45,776 nt of DNA from Blastopirellula marina (GTDB taxonomy: Bacteria; Planctomycetota; Planctomycetia; Pirellulales; Thermoguttaceae). The position numbers were made by a program, and so were the translations under genes. Below the pieces are notes generated by a model. That model was not told the origin of the DNA. It made no database searches and worked only from the letters and a program-made list of their open reading frames with translations. Where the stretch lies: contig DYLS01000031.1 in the NCBI GenBank assembly GCA_020721965.1, positions 1 through 45,776 on the forward strand. The letters are read 5' to 3'. This document shows, piece after piece, positions 2,333 through 18,085 of the stretch; position 1 is the stretch's first letter, and each line of letters opens with the position of its first letter.

Positions 2333-2902
2333 CTAGCTTTGCGCCGCCGGTTTTTCTTCGACTTGTTGCTTGGCCTTCCTGATGTACTGGTCCAGGATGA
2401 TTGGAATCTGATCGGGCGTAACCGCGCCGTGCATGTCGTTGTTGACGACCATGACGGGTGCGAGGCTGCAAGCACCGAGGCAGCGTGCGCCTTCCAACGT
2501 GAACATGCCGTCGCCGGTCGTTTCCCCGAAACGGATGCCCAATTCATCCGAGAGCTTTTCGGCCAAACGGTCGGCACCTTTGACGTAGCAAGCCGTGCCC
2601 AAGCACAGATTGATGATGAACTTGCCCCGCGGTTGCAGCCGGAATAGGTGATAAAAGCTGGCGACACCGGAGACCTTTGCGGCGGGCACCTGCAATAGCT
2701 GGGCGACGGCATCCAATTGCGATTTGCCCAGGTAACCGAACTTGCCTTGGACCCGATGCAAGACGGCGATCAGCTGGCTGTGAGGATTGCCTTCGGCGCG
2801 GCATTGCTCGATGAAGGCCACCAAGTCTTCACCCAGCACCCGCCCGGCAGTCGCTTTGACCTCTGCCCAATTATCGGTAGAGCAAGCGTGATTGCAGTTC
2901 AT
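2333..2902 (-). CDS. hydC: NuoE-like [2Fe-2S] subunit of NAD-linked hydrogenase (HydC)
   Basis: A 189-residue thioredoxin-like ferredoxin homologous to complex I subunit NuoE and to HydC of trimeric [FeFe] hydrogenases. It is expected to pass electrons between the NADH site and the iron-sulfur chain of the complex in the cytoplasm. The four cluster ligands are visible as Cys100 and Cys105 (LCLGTACYVKGA) and Cys141 and Cys145 (RCLGACSLAP). The helical N-terminal part is normal for NuoE, and the last 15 or so residues are a charged tail. Its ATG overlaps the hydA stop codon by four bases (ATGA), so translation is probably coupled. It is the last gene of the hydBAC operon. A respiratory NuoE is less likely, because the neighbours are a hydrogenase and no other complex I genes occur. 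Confidence 0.92.
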   Translation of the reverse strand: MNCNHACSTDNWAEVKATAGRVLGEDLVAFIEQCRAEGNPHSQLIAVLHRVQGKFGYLGKSQLDAVAQLLQVPAAKVSGVASFYHLFRLQPRGKFIINLCLGTACYVKGADRLAEKLSDELGIRFGETTGDGMFTLEGARCLGACSLAPVMVVNNDMHGAVTPDQIPIILDQYIRKAKQQVEEKPAAQS

Positions 2903-4668
2903 CGGATTCCTCGCGGCAATTTTGGAGAATAATAGGTATGCAGCAATTGGTGCGCCCGTTCTGAACCGGGGCTGCCCAGGAACTTCTCGTAAATCTCTTC
3001 CAAGGCGGGGTTTTCGTAGGACTCGCGTAGCTTCTTGGAGCTATCGATGGTGTACAGCGCAGCGGCGCGTTTGCGGAGGAGCTGCGGATCCAGGACGTGG
3101 TAGTGGGCTGGTGGATAGGGCTGTCCCCCGCCGCCGATGCAGCCGCCCGGGCAGGCCATGACCTCGATGACGTGGAACGCCTCCTTTTCCGAAACCACCT
3201 TGTCCAGGATTTGCTTAGCGTTGTGCAGGCCGTTGGCGACCGCTACGTGAATGTTGCGTTCCCCGATGGCGACGTAGGTCTCGCGGAGGCCCTCGACGGC
3301 CCGTACCTCGGTGAACTCCAGCCGCTCGGGCGATTTGTCGGTCAGGATGTGGTAGGCCGCTCGCAGCGTGGCCTCCATGACACCGCCGGTCGTGCCGAAG
3401 ATGTCGCCGGCGCCCGTCGCCAGGCCGAGCGGAGCGTCGAATTCGCCCTCCGGCAGGGAGGTGAAATCGATCCCGTAACACTTGATCATCCAGATCAATT
3501 CGCGGGTGGTTAAAACCGCATCCGTGTAAGGGATGCCGCTGGGCATTGCGTGCTCAGGCCGCCGGGCCTCGAACTTCTTGGCCACGCAAGGCATGACCGC
3601 CACCATGAAGATTTTCTCCGGTGGGACGCCCTTCTGCTCCGCGTAATAGGTCTTCGCCAGCGTGGAGAGCATGCTCATCGGGGACTTGCAGGTGGAGGCG
3701 TGCGGGATCAATTCCGGATAGAACTTTTCCATGAAGCTGATCCAGCCGGGCGAGCAGGAGGTGATCATGGGCAATGGTCCGCCGCCTTGCAGCCGGGTCA
3801 AAAGCTCGTGCGCCTCCTCAACGATGGTCAGATCGGCCCCCAAGTCGGTGTCGAAAACGGCATCGAAACCCAACAGCCGCAAGGCCGTGACCATCTTCCC
3901 GGTGCAGGGCGTTCCCGGAGGCAGGTCGAACCCCTCGCCGATGGCCGCGCGAATGGACGGCGCGGTTTGCACCACAACATGCAATTCGGGGTCCGCCAGG
4001 GCTTTCCAGACGTCCTCTACACTCGGCTTTTCCAGGAAGGCGGCCGTGGGGCAGACGTTGATGCACTGCCCACACTGGATGCACACCGAGTCATCCATGG
4101 GGACCAGGTGGGCGGGGCCAACTTGCGTGTGGAAACCTCGCCCATGCTGGCTGAGGTTGTACACGCCTTGAATCTCGGCGCACACCCGAACACAGCGACC
4201 GCACAAAATGCACTTGTTGGGATTGCGGACCACCGCGCTGCCGCTATCGTCGATCGGGAATTGCTTGCGCTGACCGGCGTATAACCGCTGGCGAACGCCC
4301 AACGAATAGGCCAGGTTCTGCAACTCGCAATTGCCGTCGCGTTCGCAGGTCTGGCAGTCCATGGGGTGATTGTCGAGGAGCAGTTCCACGATGTCGCGGC
4401 GGGCCTCGCGAATGGCCGGGGAATTGGTTTTCACCGACATCCCCTCCCAGACGGGCGTGCTGCACGAGGCGACATAAGCCCCCGTCCCCTCCACCTCGAC
4501 GATGCACACCCGGCACGACCCCGCCAGGCTCAAATCTGGGTGGTAGCACAAGCGTGGGATGCGGATGCCGAGCCTTTCGGCGGCATGCATGACGGTTGTG
4601 CCTTCGGGCACAGTCAACGGTGTGCCGTCCACCGTAATGTTGATCTGCTTCTTGCGTTTACGAATCAT
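2899..4668 (-). CDS. hydA: [FeFe]-hydrogenase catalytic subunit (HydA)
   Basis: A 589-residue H-cluster hydrogenase that reduces protons or oxidises H2 in the cytoplasm. Domain order: [2Fe-2S] with Cys41, 52, 55, 69; a His-Cys3 [4Fe-4S] site with His101, Cys105, 108, 114; two [4Fe-4S] ferredoxin motifs with Cys153, 156, 159, 163 and Cys196, 199, 202, 206; then the H-cluster domain. The three H-cluster motifs are TSCSPGW (303-309), MPCVAKKFE (359-367) and MACPGGCIGGGGQP (504-517), so all four cluster cysteines (305, 361, 506, 510) are present. The residue after Cys305 is Ser306, where standard enzymes have a second Cys that relays protons. The ATG at 4668 is 85 bases from the end of hydB. Maturation genes hydE, hydF and hydG are not in this window. 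Identity is secure; whether it mainly makes or takes up H2 is not readable. Confidence 0.95.
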   Translation of the reverse strand: MIRKRKKQINITVDGTPLTVPEGTTVMHAAERLGIRIPRLCYHPDLSLAGSCRVCIVEVEGTGAYVASCSTPVWEGMSVKTNSPAIREARRDIVELLLDNHPMDCQTCERDGNCELQNLAYSLGVRQRLYAGQRKQFPIDDSGSAVVRNPNKCILCGRCVRVCAEIQGVYNLSQHGRGFHTQVGPAHLVPMDDSVCIQCGQCINVCPTAAFLEKPSVEDVWKALADPELHVVVQTAPSIRAAIGEGFDLPPGTPCTGKMVTALRLLGFDAVFDTDLGADLTIVEEAHELLTRLQGGGPLPMITSCSPGWISFMEKFYPELIPHASTCKSPMSMLSTLAKTYYAEQKGVPPEKIFMVAVMPCVAKKFEARRPEHAMPSGIPYTDAVLTTRELIWMIKCYGIDFTSLPEGEFDAPLGLATGAGDIFGTTGGVMEATLRAAYHILTDKSPERLEFTEVRAVEGLRETYVAIGERNIHVAVANGLHNAKQILDKVVSEKEAFHVIEVMACPGGCIGGGGQPYPPAHYHVLDPQLLRKRAAALYTIDSSKKLRESYENPALEEIYEKFLGSPGSERAHQLLHTYYSPKLPRGIR

Positions 4669-4753
4669 GGTCTAGGCTTTCCTTGGGCCGTCTCCATCCT
4701 TTGCAAGTATTCCCACCGCTGATCTTATTCGAGAATCGCACGCCGCCCCTGGC

Positions 4754-6937
4754 TCATAATTTCAAAACGGCATCGAAGCGGCACACCTGGAAGCACCGGC
4801 CGCACTTGATGCAACGGGCCTGATCGATGACGTGCGGTTCGCGGCGATTGCCGGAGATGCATTCGACCGGGCAATTTCGGGCGCAGGCCGTGCAGCCCAC
4901 GCATTTTTCCTTATCAATCTCGAAGTGGAGCAATGCCGTGCACTTCTTGGCCGGGCAACGCTTGTCGCGCACGTGAGCCAGATATTCATCGCGAAAATGG
5001 GTGAGCGTGCTGAGCACGGGGTTGGGGGCGGCCCTCCCCAGCCCGCACAGCGATGAGCGCCGGATCAGCTTGGCCAACCGCTCCAGTTTGTTGAGGTCCT
5101 CTTCGTCGGCCTTTCCCGTGGTGATCCGTTCCAGGATTTCCATCATGCGCTTGGTGCCTTCGCGGCAGGGGGTGCATTTGCCACAGGACTCGTCTTCCGA
5201 GAAGGCGGTAAAGAACTTGGCGATGTCCACCATGCAGTCGTCCTCATCGAGGACGATCATGCCACCGGATCCCATGATCGATCCGGCGCGATTCAGGGTA
5301 TCGAAATCGACGCGCAAGTCGAGCATTCCGGCAGGGATGCACCCGCCTGCCGGACCGCCGGTCTGCACCGCCTTGACGGCCTTTCCGCCCGTGCACCCGC
5401 CCCCGATCTCCATGACCACTTCGCGCAGGGTAATGCCGATGGGGACCTCGACCAAGCCCGTGTGATTGACCTTTCCTGCCAGGGCGAAGACCTTGGTGCC
5501 GCCGCTGGCTTGGCTGCCGATGTGGCTGAACCAGTCGGCGCCGTAAATGATCACGGCGGGGACGTTGGCGAAGGTCTCGACATTGTTGATCACCGTGGGC
5601 TTGCCCCACAAGCCGACCTCGGTGGGATATGGCGGACGAATCCGCGGTTGCCCACGCTCACCCTCGATGGAATGAATGAGTGCGGTCTCCTCGCCGCACA
5701 CAAAGGCCCCCGCCCCCAAACGGATTTCGATATCGAAGTCGAAGCCGGATCGGAGGATGTCCTTGCCCAATAACCCCCATTCGCGGCACTTGCGGATGGT
5801 GTTGTCCACACGCTCGACGGCCAGGGGGTACTCGGCCCGAACATAGACGAAGCCCTGATGCGCCCCGATCGCGAAGGCCCCGATGATCATGCCTTCGATG
5901 ACGTTGAAGGGGTCCGATTCCAACATGCTGCGGTCCATGAAGGCGCCGGGGTCTCCCTCGTCCGCATTGCAGATGATGTATCGGACCCTTTCGGGCGACT
6001 TGACGGCCAAGGCCCATTTCTGGCCGGTCGGGAACCCCCCGCCGCCGCGGCCCCGCAATTTGGATTTCGTCACCTCGTCGATGACCCATTGCGGGTCCCC
6101 TTGGCTCAAGACCTTGGCCAGGGCCTCGAATCCGCGGTAGTGGACGTATTCTTCAATGCTCTCGGGGTCGATGATGCCATTGTGCCGCAAGGCGATGCGG
6201 GTTTGGCGATTGAAAAACGCGACCTCACCGTATAGCTCAAAGAAATCCTGGCTGACCGGCTCGTCGTGGACGCGGAGGCGTTCTACGATGCGGCCGCCGC
6301 GAATGTGCTCTTGGACCACCTCTTCCAGGTCGGCCAGGGTCTCCAAGCGATAGAGCACATTCTGGGGCCGCACCAGGATGTGCGTATGCTTGCCCGCCAT
6401 TTCGGCCGAGCAGGCCCCAAAGCAACTGGCGCTGATGACGCGACATTCGTCGGGTTCCACTCCCATCGCCCGGAGCTGATTGGCCATGGGACCGCCGCAG
6501 ATCTTTTCCCCCTTCCAACCGCAGCGAAGCGAGCCGCAATTCAGAATCTCGAAGCGGCTCATGGCCGCGATCGTCCCGTCCAAGACATGGTCTAGCAGCG
6601 GTTCGCCCTTAAGCACATGTTTTGTGAAGATGCCGTGTACCAGCTCACGGGTGACCTTTTCGTACTTGACCGGCATGACGCCCGGACGATAGACGCTGAC
6701 AATCGGCTCGCGGCTGCACCGGCCCGTGCAACCCGTCCGCCGCAAGACGATGTCGTCGCGACCCGAGGCCGCGATATGCTTGCGGAATTCGTCGGCAACG
6801 GCGACCGCCCCGGCGGCGTTTTCACAGGTGGCGGAACCGACCTGGATGAAGATGCGATGACCGGTGTTCTGTTCGCGAACGACCTGCTCGCACTTATCCC
6901 GGATGGTCTGTAAAACATCCCAAACTTGCTGTTTCAC
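4754..6937 (-). CDS. hydB: NuoF-like flavin/iron-sulfur subunit of NAD-linked hydrogenase (HydB)
   Basis: A 727-residue NADH-oxidising (or NAD-reducing) subunit that carries FMN and links pyridine nucleotide and ferredoxin to HydA. A first thioredoxin-like domain spans about 1-110 with Cys38, Cys70 and Cys74. A second one spans about 128-215 with Cys134, Cys139, Cys172 and Cys176. The NuoF core starts near 235, with the nucleotide loop GRGGGGFPTG (297-306) and ICNADEGDPGAF, then the [4Fe-4S] motif SCGKCTPCREG. Two ferredoxin motifs close the protein (KCVGCTACARNCP and RCIKCGRCFQVC). HydB proteins I know of have one N-terminal ferredoxin-like domain and run near 600-630 residues, so the second domain explains the extra length. 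The start is GTG at 6937, preceded by AAGGAG at seven bases. First gene of the operon. Electron bifurcation is likely from the architecture but not proven. Confidence 0.93.
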   Translation of the reverse strand: MKQQVWDVLQTIRDKCEQVVREQNTGHRIFIQVGSATCENAAGAVAVADEFRKHIAASGRDDIVLRRTGCTGRCSREPIVSVYRPGVMPVKYEKVTRELVHGIFTKHVLKGEPLLDHVLDGTIAAMSRFEILNCGSLRCGWKGEKICGGPMANQLRAMGVEPDECRVISASCFGACSAEMAGKHTHILVRPQNVLYRLETLADLEEVVQEHIRGGRIVERLRVHDEPVSQDFFELYGEVAFFNRQTRIALRHNGIIDPESIEEYVHYRGFEALAKVLSQGDPQWVIDEVTKSKLRGRGGGGFPTGQKWALAVKSPERVRYIICNADEGDPGAFMDRSMLESDPFNVIEGMIIGAFAIGAHQGFVYVRAEYPLAVERVDNTIRKCREWGLLGKDILRSGFDFDIEIRLGAGAFVCGEETALIHSIEGERGQPRIRPPYPTEVGLWGKPTVINNVETFANVPAVIIYGADWFSHIGSQASGGTKVFALAGKVNHTGLVEVPIGITLREVVMEIGGGCTGGKAVKAVQTGGPAGGCIPAGMLDLRVDFDTLNRAGSIMGSGGMIVLDEDDCMVDIAKFFTAFSEDESCGKCTPCREGTKRMMEILERITTGKADEEDLNKLERLAKLIRRSSLCGLGRAAPNPVLSTLTHFRDEYLAHVRDKRCPAKKCTALLHFEIDKEKCVGCTACARNCPVECISGNRREPHVIDQARCIKCGRCFQVCRFDAVLKL

Positions 6938-10907: not shown

Positions 10908-11807
10908 TCAGTGCGAATGTGTGTGCTGAGTGGGCGGCGTCTTCTTGTGCCGGTATGTCAGGAAATCGCCCACGTAAATCATGTATTCGAACGGCAACTG
11001 CTCTGGGACGACCTCCCGCTGGATCGTCCCCAGCGTGGCCTGGATGACCCGCTCTTTATCCTTGTACCCGGCTTGGATCACAACGGCGACGGGGGTCTCC
11101 GGCGGATAATGCGTCTTCAGCTTTTCGATGAGGGAGTTGAAATCCGCTCGCATGGTGAATAGCACCATCGTGGCCCGATGCTGGGCCAATTTGTCGATGG
11201 TATCCGTTTTACCCGGCCAGTCATTGGCAGACAGGATTACCGATTTGGTTTCGGTGGCATTGGTGATGCCTCGCCCGATGGCGGCGTTTCCAGCATTGAA
11301 GGCACTCACGCCCGGCACGACCTCAGGGTGCAAATCCTCGAACTCTTCCAGGCACCATGACCACGGACCATAAATCAGCGGATCGCCGTGGTCCGCGATG
11401 ACCACAGTCTTTCCCTGAGCGATCGCCTGGCGTACCCGTTGAATGAATTCGCTCCTTTTTTTGGCCAATTCTTCGGCCCGGGGCCGTTCCTCAGGCGGCA
11501 ACGTTTCGATATCTACCCCATAGTACTCGAACAGTCGCCAGTAGCCGGTGACCACCTCCTTGTCGGCGAGATATGCGCCACATTTTTCACGAATTCCGTC
11601 CGTGCAGAATACCAAGTCCGCCTTCTGGATGGTAGCAATCGCCCGCAGAGTGATCAGGTCCGGATCGCCCGGCCCAACCCCGACCAGAAAGAGCTGGGTG
11701 GGATGCGCCTGAGCCGGCAGTCCAAGGCAGGAGAACAAAACAATCGCGAAAAGGCACGTACCCTGCCGCAAACAGCTCCAGAAACCTAGCAACTTTTGAT
11801 TCTTCAT
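10908..11807 (-). CDS. Tetrapyrrole methylase-family protein with a signal peptide
   Basis: A 299-residue protein of the SAM-dependent tetrapyrrole (corrin/porphyrin) methylase family. The SAM-binding hallmark LFLVGVGPGDPDLITLRA begins near residue 40, with further family motifs at ADHGDPLIYGPW and VVPGVSAFNAGNAAIGR. Overall it looks nearest to precorrin C11/C20-type enzymes. Unusually, residues 1-34 form a classic export signal: basic start, hydrophobic core CLFAIVLFSCLGL, and a likely cleavage after AQA. The C-terminus is His-rich (TQHTHSH). The ATG at 11807 is preceded by GGAGGT at nine bases, so the signal peptide is in the gene product and is not an artefact of a too-early start. No cobalamin or haem genes flank it. 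Upstream lies an eight-unit 16-base tandem array. The enzyme activity and its compartment are uncertain. Confidence 0.8.
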   Translation of the reverse strand: MKNQKLLGFWSCLRQGTCLFAIVLFSCLGLPAQAHPTQLFLVGVGPGDPDLITLRAIATIQKADLVFCTDGIREKCGAYLADKEVVTGYWRLFEYYGVDIETLPPEERPRAEELAKKRSEFIQRVRQAIAQGKTVVIADHGDPLIYGPWSWCLEEFEDLHPEVVPGVSAFNAGNAAIGRGITNATETKSVILSANDWPGKTDTIDKLAQHRATMVLFTMRADFNSLIEKLKTHYPPETPVAVVIQAGYKDKERVIQATLGTIQREVVPEQLPFEYMIYVGDFLTYRHKKTPPTQHTHSH

Positions 11808-11835
11808 CGTTCTGCTACCTCCAAAATCCCGTAAA

Positions 11836-16519: not shown

Positions 16520-17887
16520 TCAGAAGCCGTATTTCGCCACGAATTCCAGTCTGAAGCTGTCGCCAGGTAATTTCCCGGCCCAGTTCGTCTTCCACTGACT
16601 GGCCTCCACGCCAACGAGGAATTGCTTCGTCAAATCATAGCTGAGGTTGGCGAAGTAGAACTGGTTGTACGTTCGGCCGGTCGTGATGTCGCTGTTGATA
16701 GGGTCATCGATGGAATAGCCGACATGGCTGTGCAGCCGGCTCGTCCAGTCGTACCAAACATCGACCCAGCCACCGGTCGAACGGATGATATCCCGCGTGG
16801 TTGTGTTCACCCCCTGAACCGCGCCGCCGAGATAGGCACCCAGGTTTTCGCCGGTGAAGAACTCGCCTTGAACACCGAGCCGGCGGGTGATTGGGTAGCG
16901 GAAGTCGACGTTGAATGACCAGGTCAGCAGCTCAACGTCGTCGGCCGCCGGCGGTGTCAGGAAGTCCCACGACTGCTCGCCGATGTGCCCGGAGATCCCG
17001 AACTCGAAGGGGCGGCCACCTTGGCCACGATCCCCGAGCTTGAAGGCCAACCGCCCCTCCACGACTGGCCAAGAGGCGTGGTCTCCCACCACGTTCGGTC
17101 CGAATTCGGAAACAATATCACCGTTAATGGACGCCTGTGTTGTTACCAGCAGGTCGTCGGAAAAATGAAAATACCGTTCCGCGCGGAATTGGGCACGGCG
17201 GTAGCCGAGATTTCCACCACCCCAACCCACGGAGTACATCAAGGTGCCGGGGAGTAAGGGCGAAATGACGTCCCAAGTTTGACCGGCCAGCAGCCGAAAG
17301 TATTCATTCTTGACTTCCAGGTACGCGTGGCGGAGAAGGACCGTACCTTTGTTCTCCTGGAGGTAATTGCCCTGGAAGTCGATTTCGACCTTGCCACCGC
17401 TTTCCGCGCAGCCGAGCGCCGCAATTTGGGGACCGGTAAAATCCAATCCCAAACGTGTGGATTTGGCATCCACATGCCAGGCCGACTCGCCTTGATCCGA
17501 GGATGAAAAAACATACAGCGTGTAGTCACCAACGTTCGAACGTGCACTTTCGTACGTCGTTGCGCCCCAGAGGATGCCGTACGGCACGATTTGGAAATCG
17601 CCCTTAGTCCAGGCCAGCTTCTTCATTTCAGCCCGCAACTCGTCCATGGTGTAGTATTCAGCCTTGAGGTCGGGATCGGCTTCGGTGGCGAAAGAAGCCG
17701 TATCGTAGCTGACCGGTGGCAGTGGCCGGAGCGATTCCGCGCGCAGCCGAGCCAATTCCTCTCGCAGGGCCTGTGTCTCGTTCTCCAATCGCTGAAGACG
17801 CTGCTCCGCGGTCTCCTGGCCGTGCACAGCCGCCGGAAGGCCGAGCACTACGGCCAATGTTACAACGAGCAACCCGTGCCAATTCAT
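16520..17887 (-). CDS. Outer-membrane porin-like beta-barrel protein
   Basis: A 455-residue exported protein. Residues 1-23 are a signal peptide ([18 protein letters not shown]) and cleavage is expected before QETAEQ. A short coiled coil follows ([18 protein letters not shown], about 26-52). From about residue 90 the sequence alternates polar and hydrophobic residues with many aromatics and Gly, as in trans-outer-membrane beta strands, and it ends in Phe (VAKYGF), the usual barrel-insertion signal. The coiled coil followed by a barrel recalls planctomycetal porins of the OprP/phosphoporin-like type, but the solute is unknown. I chose the ATG at 17887, preceded by GGAGAAAGGAC; longer frames upstream lack a signal sequence. 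It is divergent from glgC. Supports a Gram-negative type envelope. Confidence 0.82.
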
Positions 17888-18085
17888 CGGATCCGTCCTT
17901 TCTCCCGGGAAGCGATCATGCGTTGGCCAAACAACAAGGTGGTGGCGATTGGCCAGCAATTCGGCAAAATCCGTGCCGTCCTTCTTGGTGTAATCGTCAG
18001 TGCGATGCGTATATTTCACACGATTCGACGGTTGGCAGTCGCGGATTTGCCGCTGTGGGGAATCCCCTCGCACGATCTGCCGAGT

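Follow-up and report, generated by a model that had tools for sequence, protein, structure and literature searches.

A 45,776-nucleotide stretch of the Blastopirellula marina genome (assembly GCA_020721965.1, contig DYLS01000031.1, positions 1 to 45,776; hereafter the window) encodes a 299-residue protein that joins the fold of the tetrapyrrole (TP) methylases to a signal peptide. It represents a known fold in a new, exported form, which gene linkage and a domain fusion tie to metal import. On balance, we consider it probable that the protein is exported by the Sec pathway and assists metal import outside the cytoplasm by handling the organic ligand of the metal. The fold, the signal, the conservation of the site for S-adenosylmethionine (SAM), and the gene linkage and domain fusion in relatives are directly supported. 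An extracytoplasmic location is very probable and service to metal import in the window's own organism is likely; handling of an organic ligand falls a little short of an even chance, and actual methylation is rather unlikely. The metal would be nickel or cobalt in the larger set of loci that bear marker genes, and perhaps tungsten or molybdenum in a smaller set.

Gene start and signal peptide

The exported TP gene (P0001), recognised by its translation, its PF00590 match and its orthologues, lies at positions 10908-11807 on the minus strand, an interval that the first-pass annotation had given correctly. The ATG is at 11807-11805 and the stop codon at 10910-10908. A Shine-Dalgarno-like GGAGGT (11817-11822, minus strand) stands 9 nt 5' of the ATG. 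As judged from its sequence, the N-terminus is a Sec-type signal peptide with n-, h- and c-regions and an AxA site. It covers residues 1-34 (11706-11807, minus strand; ...IVLFSCLGLPAQA^HPT), with the cleavage site placed from the AxA rule only. By eye and with a crude filter, the h-region has a hydropathy of 2.7, two Lys/Arg residues are present and the end reads AQA^HPT. A hydrophobic N-terminal signal ahead of the SAM-type motif was also seen by eye in 12/12 aligned orthologues.

If the start codon were misplaced, the true protein might begin after the signal, and no evidence in support of such an artefact was found. The alternative in-frame starts 5' of the motif are three upstream GTGs and the TTGs at residues 6, 13 and 24. 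The TTG at residue 13 has a GGAG just 4 nt ahead, and a start there would retain the hydrophobic stretch; no GGAG-like sequence precedes the TTGs at residues 6 and 24 in the window. The stretch from residue 24 to the motif (residues 42-53) holds no further in-frame ATG, GTG or TTG, so that a start near residue 36, which the first-pass annotation had named as the refuting case, was looked for in the frame and is absent. Together with the GGAGGT before the ATG and the conservation of the signal among orthologues, this leaves the artefact a negligible probability. The earlier claims that an intact SAM-type motif directly follows the signal (VGVGPGDPDLIT at residues 42-53 behind residues 1-34), and that the start with the good ribosome binding site includes the signal, were both upheld, with the addition that the TTG at residue 13 would keep the hydrophobic stretch as well.

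Fold and closest families

The PF00590 match (residues 39-262, E 4.3e-46) reaches 158 bits against a Pfam gathering cut-off of 27.8 and bears out the identification as a tetrapyrrole methylase. The top NCBIfam match is CobM/CbiF (TIGR01465), at 117.3 bits below its equivalog cut-off of 259.65; the SUMT/CobA/CysG model gave 84.6 bits against a domain cut-off of 185, which is likewise not reached. The closest solved proteins by sequence are also CobM/CbiF. Close kin on plasmids were sought and not found: among plasmid records, 205 match, all at below 60% identity, and the best 10 of the 205 comprise nine annotated as cobM or cobA and one without annotation.

The AlphaFold2 model (mean pLDDT 77.8, pTM 0.74) was matched by Foldseek to CobM, CbiF, CysG and SUMT, and the top Foldseek and VIA rows are CobM/CbiF/CysG/CbiL, as found for a two-domain TP-methylase fold. 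The best VIA row, 3nei_B, has a Z of 14.0 over 218 residues with a root-mean-square deviation of 13.8 Å; at such a value of about 14 Å, the relative orientation of the domains in the model is unreliable.

The protein thus shares the top family and fold match and the SAM-site motifs of the precorrin-4 C11-methyltransferase CobM/CbiF (PDB 3nei, 4e16, 1cbf). Unlike these enzymes, however, it is exported, has no corrin-ring cluster and scores far under the family cut-off; the CobM/CbiF comparison rows also stand apart from the exported family on the tree described below, across a weak separating branch. It likewise shares the fold and the GDP and PG loops of the uroporphyrinogen-III methyltransferase CobA/SUMT/CysG, but differs in its score under the cut-off, in a variable position for the catalytic Asp and in its export. 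The borosin alpha-N-methyltransferases (SonM, OphMA), which are cytoplasmic, belong to the same fold superfamily with a non-tetrapyrrole target, and appeared among the VIA rows at Z 11-12.

Distribution and forms of the exported family

Matches at 55% identity or more were found in the window and in seven other genomes among 60 genomes searched, the window's own included. Any match at E <= 1e-10 was found in 17/60 genomes, the remaining nine at 29-33% identity. Among named genomes, ten loci were found, of which nine belong to Planctomycetota and the tenth to a Deltaproteobacteria metagenome-assembled genome (MAG; L029, 48% identity). In the phylum of this MAG, 48/297 genomes match at E <= 1e-25 and 32 of them at E <= 3e-39. 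Of the other 16 genomes, 12 were read, and most carry what by sequence resembles a cytosolic CobM; L120, for which no signal was called, groups with the exported family on the tree.

From 40 fetched loci of this phylum and the planctomycete loci, a wider family of 52 proteins with 56 domains was collected. Its forms are single domains, tandem TP domains (L072, L074, L075, L080), a fusion of DUF4198 to TP (L070_3), and an Oxidored_molyb-like head followed by TP (hereafter Mo-fold-headed). The match of this N-terminal head is weak, with 28.5 bits in L087 against a cut-off of 24, and L099 and L179 below the cut-off.

In a survey of signal-bearing TP-methylase proteins and their neighbours, which the first-pass annotation had suggested, 47/52 family proteins pass a crude signal filter (13 uncharged residues with a mean hydropathy of at least 2 and Lys/Arg ahead), and TonB receptors and nickel/cobalt importers lie near many of the genes. 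Only 1/36 comparison open reading frames (ORFs) passes, and that one (L128_4) is a family member. The failures are L037_9 and L034_8 (Trp-rich, hydropathy 1.7-1.8), L024_11 (a wrong start set by the script), L090_5 (no Lys/Arg) and L090_2 (truncated). The alignment of the model that collected the family covered the signal region, and the count may accordingly favour signal-bearing members.

In a quick tree of 82 rows, a branch divides the 57 exported domains from CobA-, CobM- and CbiL-like rows. Two clades are firmly supported, that of the nine planctomycete rows (support 98) and a larger one with 30 rows (support 96). L090_2, ctl_L123_2, ctl_L119_6, ctl_L113_1, ctl_L003_0 and ctl_L015_3 were removed from the tree, while ctl_L128_4 and ctl_L120_5 were counted as exported after inspection of their sequences, L120_5 having no called signal. 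The labels of the comparison rows (CobM-like and so on) were assigned by sequence, with L001 alone run against NCBIfam.

These forms bear on whether the signal might be an uncleaved anchor, with a membrane-tethered methyltransferase working on the cytoplasmic side, as had been proposed earlier. SAM is cytoplasmic and the SAM site is intact, which would suit such an arrangement. However, many family members end their signal in an AxA-type cleavage site, and the neighbours are envelope proteins. In the L070 fusion, moreover, the TP domain stands behind the secreted DUF4198 domain with a single N-terminal signal, and the best 19-residue hydropathy past residue 50 is 1.28. Because no second membrane-like stretch is present, the sequence indicates that the TP domain should be on the same side of the membrane as its DUF4198 domain. 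Among the multi-domain members, 1/13 (L087_4, 1.61) attains a 19-residue hydropathy of 1.6 past residue 50. The tethered cytoplasmic enzyme is therefore disfavoured, and we regard it as very improbable.

Conservation of the SAM-type site

Column conservation was measured over 53 non-redundant exported domains. Three elements make up the site: the motif VGVGPGDPDLIT (residues 42-53; 11649-11684), the SAM-loop equivalent GDPLIYGP (residues 141-148; 11364-11387) and the PGVS loop (residues 165-168; 11304-11315), all on the minus strand. G45, G141, P143 and G166 are invariant. Position 142 is Asp in 46/53 and Asn in 7/53 domains, A246 is Ala in 51/53 and P46 is Pro in 38/53; position 168 is S in 33/53, G in 19/53 and N in 1/53. 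The SAM contacts of CysG, as listed in UniProt, correspond to nine columns, which average 3.11 bits against 2.19; only 20 of 20,000 random column sets were equally high. A site for a SAM-like ligand is thus retained.

The catalytic Asp of SUMT, CysG D248, corresponds to Thr69 in the window protein, and its commonest residues among the 53 domains are Ser (15), Pro (9) and His (7). With this position variable, SUMT chemistry is not indicated by the alignment.

The same columns were used to consider the fold as a mere scaffold that binds the metal ion itself, in the manner of a metallochaperone. Linkage to nickel genes is consistent with this, as are two features of the window protein: a predicted mature N-terminus that is His (residue 35; 11703-11705) and a His-rich C-terminal tail (residues 292-299; 10911-10934, minus strand). 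Yet neither feature is shared. In the 13-row alignment the N-terminal His is absent from the orthologues, and the tail is missing from all 12 of them. His or Cys is the leading residue in none of the 80 most conserved columns and Met in two, and no metal site is visible in the TP domain by this measure. The metallochaperone is consequently improbable. A metal role for the His-rich C-terminus, which the earlier annotation had raised, found no support, and the tail was rejected as a functional metal site since it is confined to the window protein.

Linkage to metal-import genes in the phylum of the Deltaproteobacteria MAG

Gene neighbours were counted in 37 loci from 27 of the 32 genomes matching at E <= 3e-39; L076, L077 and L107 were left out, with no exported TP gene among their called ORFs. 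In 33/37 loci a TonB receptor lies no more than three called ORFs from the exported TP gene; the corresponding count is 17/37 for an APC permease, 16/37 for a DUF4198 gene and 6/37 for a NikL-like gene. The loci counted here had also served to build the category models, and the controls were scored with those models too. Ten arbitrarily placed windows (set by hand at round numbers in eight of the genomes and counted whole) gave 0 in all four categories, and ten windows around cytosolic-type TP genes gave one TonB receptor and 0 APC permeases, DUF4198 and NikL genes. The ORF caller took the longest non-overlapping ORF; being crude, it missed or mis-called some genes (for example in L151, L176 and at window positions 16520-17890), which were re-read separately.

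Linkage to a nickel/cobalt importer of the energy-coupling factor (ECF) type is seen in this phylum at L080, with the order CbiM, CbiQ, CbiO-like ATPase, TonB receptor (called in two pieces), tandem TP, DUF4198, APC permease, TonB receptor and NikL-like gene. CbiM scores 277.7 bits (cut-off 173), CbiQ 132.9 (cut-off 111.8) and the NikL-like gene 48.8 (cut-off 100). At L104, a gene for LarC, the nickel-insertion protein of the nickel-pincer cofactor, was noted at 4045-5223 (463.7 bits, Pfam), followed by a TonB receptor, one other gene, TP, DUF4198 and an APC permease.

Eight loci form the Mo-fold-headed set, assigned by length, sequence and one tree clade, with Pfam run on L087 and L099 alone. 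DUF4198 or NikL occurs in 18/29 loci without the head but in 0/8 with it (hypergeometric P 0.002, for loci that are not independent). Of the 37 loci, nine hold TupA-like or FmdE genes, namely 4/10 that are Mo-fold-headed or related and 5/27 others, and two of these five also carry nickel markers. A second planctomycete type of exported protein with an Oxidored_molyb-like head was seen at L179:6116-7474 and L180:8002-9411; a TupA-like binding protein and an ABC ATPase follow the L179 gene, the former with 187.9 bits, short of its equivalog cut-off (400).

Other genes also adjoin exported TP genes. Nucleoside-hydrolase-like genes with signal-like N-termini stand at L095:6372-7490 (by Pfam) and L102:6250-7728 (by similarity to L095), and in L082, L083 and L087 the neighbours are a cytochrome-c-assembly-like gene, recognised by Pfam in L087, and a gene that by eye resembles ResB.

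Among solved proteins, LAT-type and related amino-acid transporters are the nearest relatives of the APC permease, which occurs in 10/18 loci with nickel-type markers and in 6/10 Mo-fold-headed or related loci. LAT-type transporters are exchangers. The exported protein might then be a working periplasmic SAM-dependent methyltransferase, for which the LAT-like permease would exchange SAM for S-adenosylhomocysteine or import the substrate; this would extend the accessory role rather than replace it. The core SAM-site columns are kept across diverged members, the permease is found with both types of locus, and its solved relatives include many LAT-type transporters. On the other side, no such permease was matched in the loci of the window's type, the column of the SUMT catalytic Asp varies, and the literature searched gave nothing relevant on extracytoplasmic SAM. 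To our knowledge, no source of SAM outside the cytoplasm has been described. Such an enzyme is possible but unlikely.

Linkage in planctomycetes

Thirteen planctomycete loci are of the window's type. A DUF1559 pseudopilin-like gene adjoins TP in 7/13 of them, and DUF4198 lies beside or near TP in 5/13; the contigs of L028 and L035 end close to the gene. In L176, a Candidatus Anammoximicrobium MAG, one strand carries, in succession, DUF1559, TP, DUF4198, a CbiM-NikL fusion, CbiQ and a CbiO-like ATPase. The DUF1559, TP and DUF4198 genes of L027 are faced, from the opposite strand, by genes for a CbiO-like ATPase, CbiQ and NikL; no CbiM was seen on its short contig. Relatives in both groups thus show linkage to importer genes.

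One report describes DUF4198 as a secreted nickel-binding protein with a dissociation constant of 18 nM and a variant of the His brace, gives its mature N-terminus as His, and lists TonB receptors and NikR_C regulators among its neighbours (PMC12537917). NikK and NikL have been proposed as periplasmic parts of NikMQO (PMC545781), and another report places DUF4198 in PepSY clusters too (PMC8238504). The window protein resembles NikK/DUF4198 and NikL in being exported and linked to CbiMQO-type importers and TonB receptors, and DUF4198 is fused to TP in L070; it differs in its Pfam family and in a TP domain without a conserved His or Cys column. In the literature searched, which left most subscription journals uncovered, no description of exported TP methylases was found, and none of DUF4198 together with FmdE. 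A stress study of P. gingivalis and a population study of Chlorobium were the sole papers listed for such a methylase together with TonB.

The genome of the window's organism

The genome that holds the window has three PF00590 genes: the exported gene, one of CobA type (C290) and one of CbiE-CbiT type (C117). No CbiF, CbiL or CbiH is among them in an assembly that is 97% complete in 380 contigs. The corrin pathway therefore does not look intact in this assembly, and the exported protein appears to sit outside it. This agrees with the earlier remark that no corrin cluster accompanies the gene. The exported protein was considered as the missing corrin-ring enzyme of its genome and judged unlikely to be so, its scores being far under the corrin equivalog cut-offs. 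The CbiE-CbiT gene (precorrin-6Y methyltransferase; L153:713-2026, G000:C117) is apparently an orphan corrin enzyme.

A nickel/cobalt ECF set is present elsewhere in the genome, on C121 (G000), as DUF4198-CbiM-NikL-CbiQ-CbiO-like. DUF4198 scores 184 bits, CbiM 201 (cut-off 173) and NikL 132 (cut-off 100); the CbiQ-like gene, at 107.2 bits, is slightly under its cut-off of 111.8, and the CbiO-like ATPase is also present. C65 carries a DUF1559-DUF4198 pair whose DUF1559 is 49-74% identical to the TP-adjoining DUF1559 of six relatives. Since this pair is on C65 while the TP gene stands apart in the window, the arrangement suggests that the exported TP gene became separated from its partners in this genome.

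Two further features of the window were noted. Positions 16520-17890 encode a signal-bearing protein, barrel-like by eye and without a Pfam match, whose homologues lie close to the exported gene in L034 and L037 (64-67% identity) and adjoin it in L026 (47%). On the minus strand, 2899-4668 and 4754-6937 encode an [FeFe]-hydrogenase large subunit (PF02906, 306 bits) and, by sequence, a NuoF-like partner, 4 to 6 kb from the exported gene.

Evidence that weighs against the proposed role

Several results count against an accessory role in metal import. The window itself shows no linkage to importer genes. The neighbours of the gene are an isochorismatase-family hydrolase, an M16 peptidase and a protein without a Pfam match, in an order kept within the genus, and the importer and metal-category models matched only two ABC ATPases in the window, at 19.9-22.1 kb and of the oligopeptide type by sequence. 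Metal-import neighbours are missing in L034, L037, L038, L035 and L022 as well. The category models matched no TonB receptor or LAT-like permease in any locus of the window's type, and the single TonB receptor match of the own genome is on another contig. In the other phylum, 4/37 loci lack a TonB receptor within three ORFs, and 19/37 have neither DUF4198 nor NikL. Mo-fold-headed loci are only weakly linked to tungsten genes. A search with the 13-row alignment at E <= 1e-30 matched 2/392 sampled genomes of the own phylum, own included, and the gene is therefore patchy in distribution. The branch that separates the exported family has a support of only 27. H140, one of the nine SAM-contact-equivalent positions, is poorly conserved (rank 184/254). 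A tetrapyrrole as the ligand common to all branches is disfavoured, because tungstate and nickel have no obvious shared ligand.

Regulatory sites are part of the same case. Upstream of 43 family genes, matches to the consensus of NikR (delta type, both orientations), Zur and ModE show no excess over shuffles; Fur-like sites are slightly enriched, as poor matches only: at most 6/18 mismatches were found for 11/43 genes against 5.8 expected, and none had 4 or fewer. Across the 36/40 fetched loci scanned (all but L076, L077, L107 and L109), two cobalamin riboswitches were found, neither of them upstream of TP; the window holds none, and none serves TP genes in the six other planctomycete loci scanned. 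Scans over whole loci gave higher counts in TP loci than in controls (614 and 347 kb), with 24 matches versus 6 for delta-type NikR at 3 mismatches, a difference not upheld upstream of the genes, and 14 versus 2 for E. coli-type NikR at 2 mismatches.

The protein could accordingly be an envelope protein with some other task, whose proximity to metal genes is incidental; the unrelated neighbours that are kept in the genus and the lack of a convincing regulator site upstream are what such a protein would show. However, TonB receptors accompany 33/37 loci against 0/10 and 1/10 in the two controls, DUF4198 is linked to TP in both groups (5/13 in planctomycetes) and fused to it, and nickel/cobalt ECF genes stand beside TP in L176, L027 and L080. 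We give incidental proximity a low probability.

Proposed role in metal uptake

As an accessory of metal import, the protein would act after an outer-membrane receptor has imported a metal bound to an organic ligand. The cleft between the two domains of the exported TP protein would bind this ligand, whether tetrapyrrole-like or another molecule of the size of SAM, and would hold or modify it, methylated or not. In the nickel/cobalt set, the metal might then pass to the secreted nickel-binding DUF4198/NikK and onward to a CbiMQO-type importer; in the Mo-fold-headed set, it would perhaps pass to a TupA-type importer. In the window's own organism, loci of this type show no TonB receptor and the one match in the genome lies elsewhere; the barrel-like protein at 16520-17890 might be a candidate for the outer-membrane step there. 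A precedent for a tetrapyrrole enzyme outside the cytoplasm is the exported cobaltochelatase CbiKP of Desulfovibrio, which is a chelatase and not of the TP-methylase fold.

A bolder scheme, which we rate as a long shot, is that metal is salvaged from whole metallocofactors outside the cytoplasm. The cofactors would be imported through TonB receptors, and the TP protein would dismantle or cap them with SAM that reaches it through the LAT-like exchanger; the metal thus released would go to DUF4198/NikK and CbiMQO or to a TupA-type importer. Nickel/cobalt tetrapyrroles would be the cofactors in one branch, and pterin-bound tungsten or molybdenum in the Oxidored_molyb-like-headed branch. If true, this would mean SAM chemistry outside the cytoplasm.

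Implications

In two bacterial groups, a fold known from cytoplasmic methylation turns up repeatedly as an exported component of metal-uptake clusters, in single, tandem, DUF4198-fused and Mo-fold-headed forms. Its presence there raises two testable questions, namely what ligand accompanies the metal on its way through these TonB receptors and whether any SAM is used outside the cytoplasm. Furthermore, similarity-based labels of precorrin methyltransferase on such genes could mislead reconstructions of the B12 pathway.

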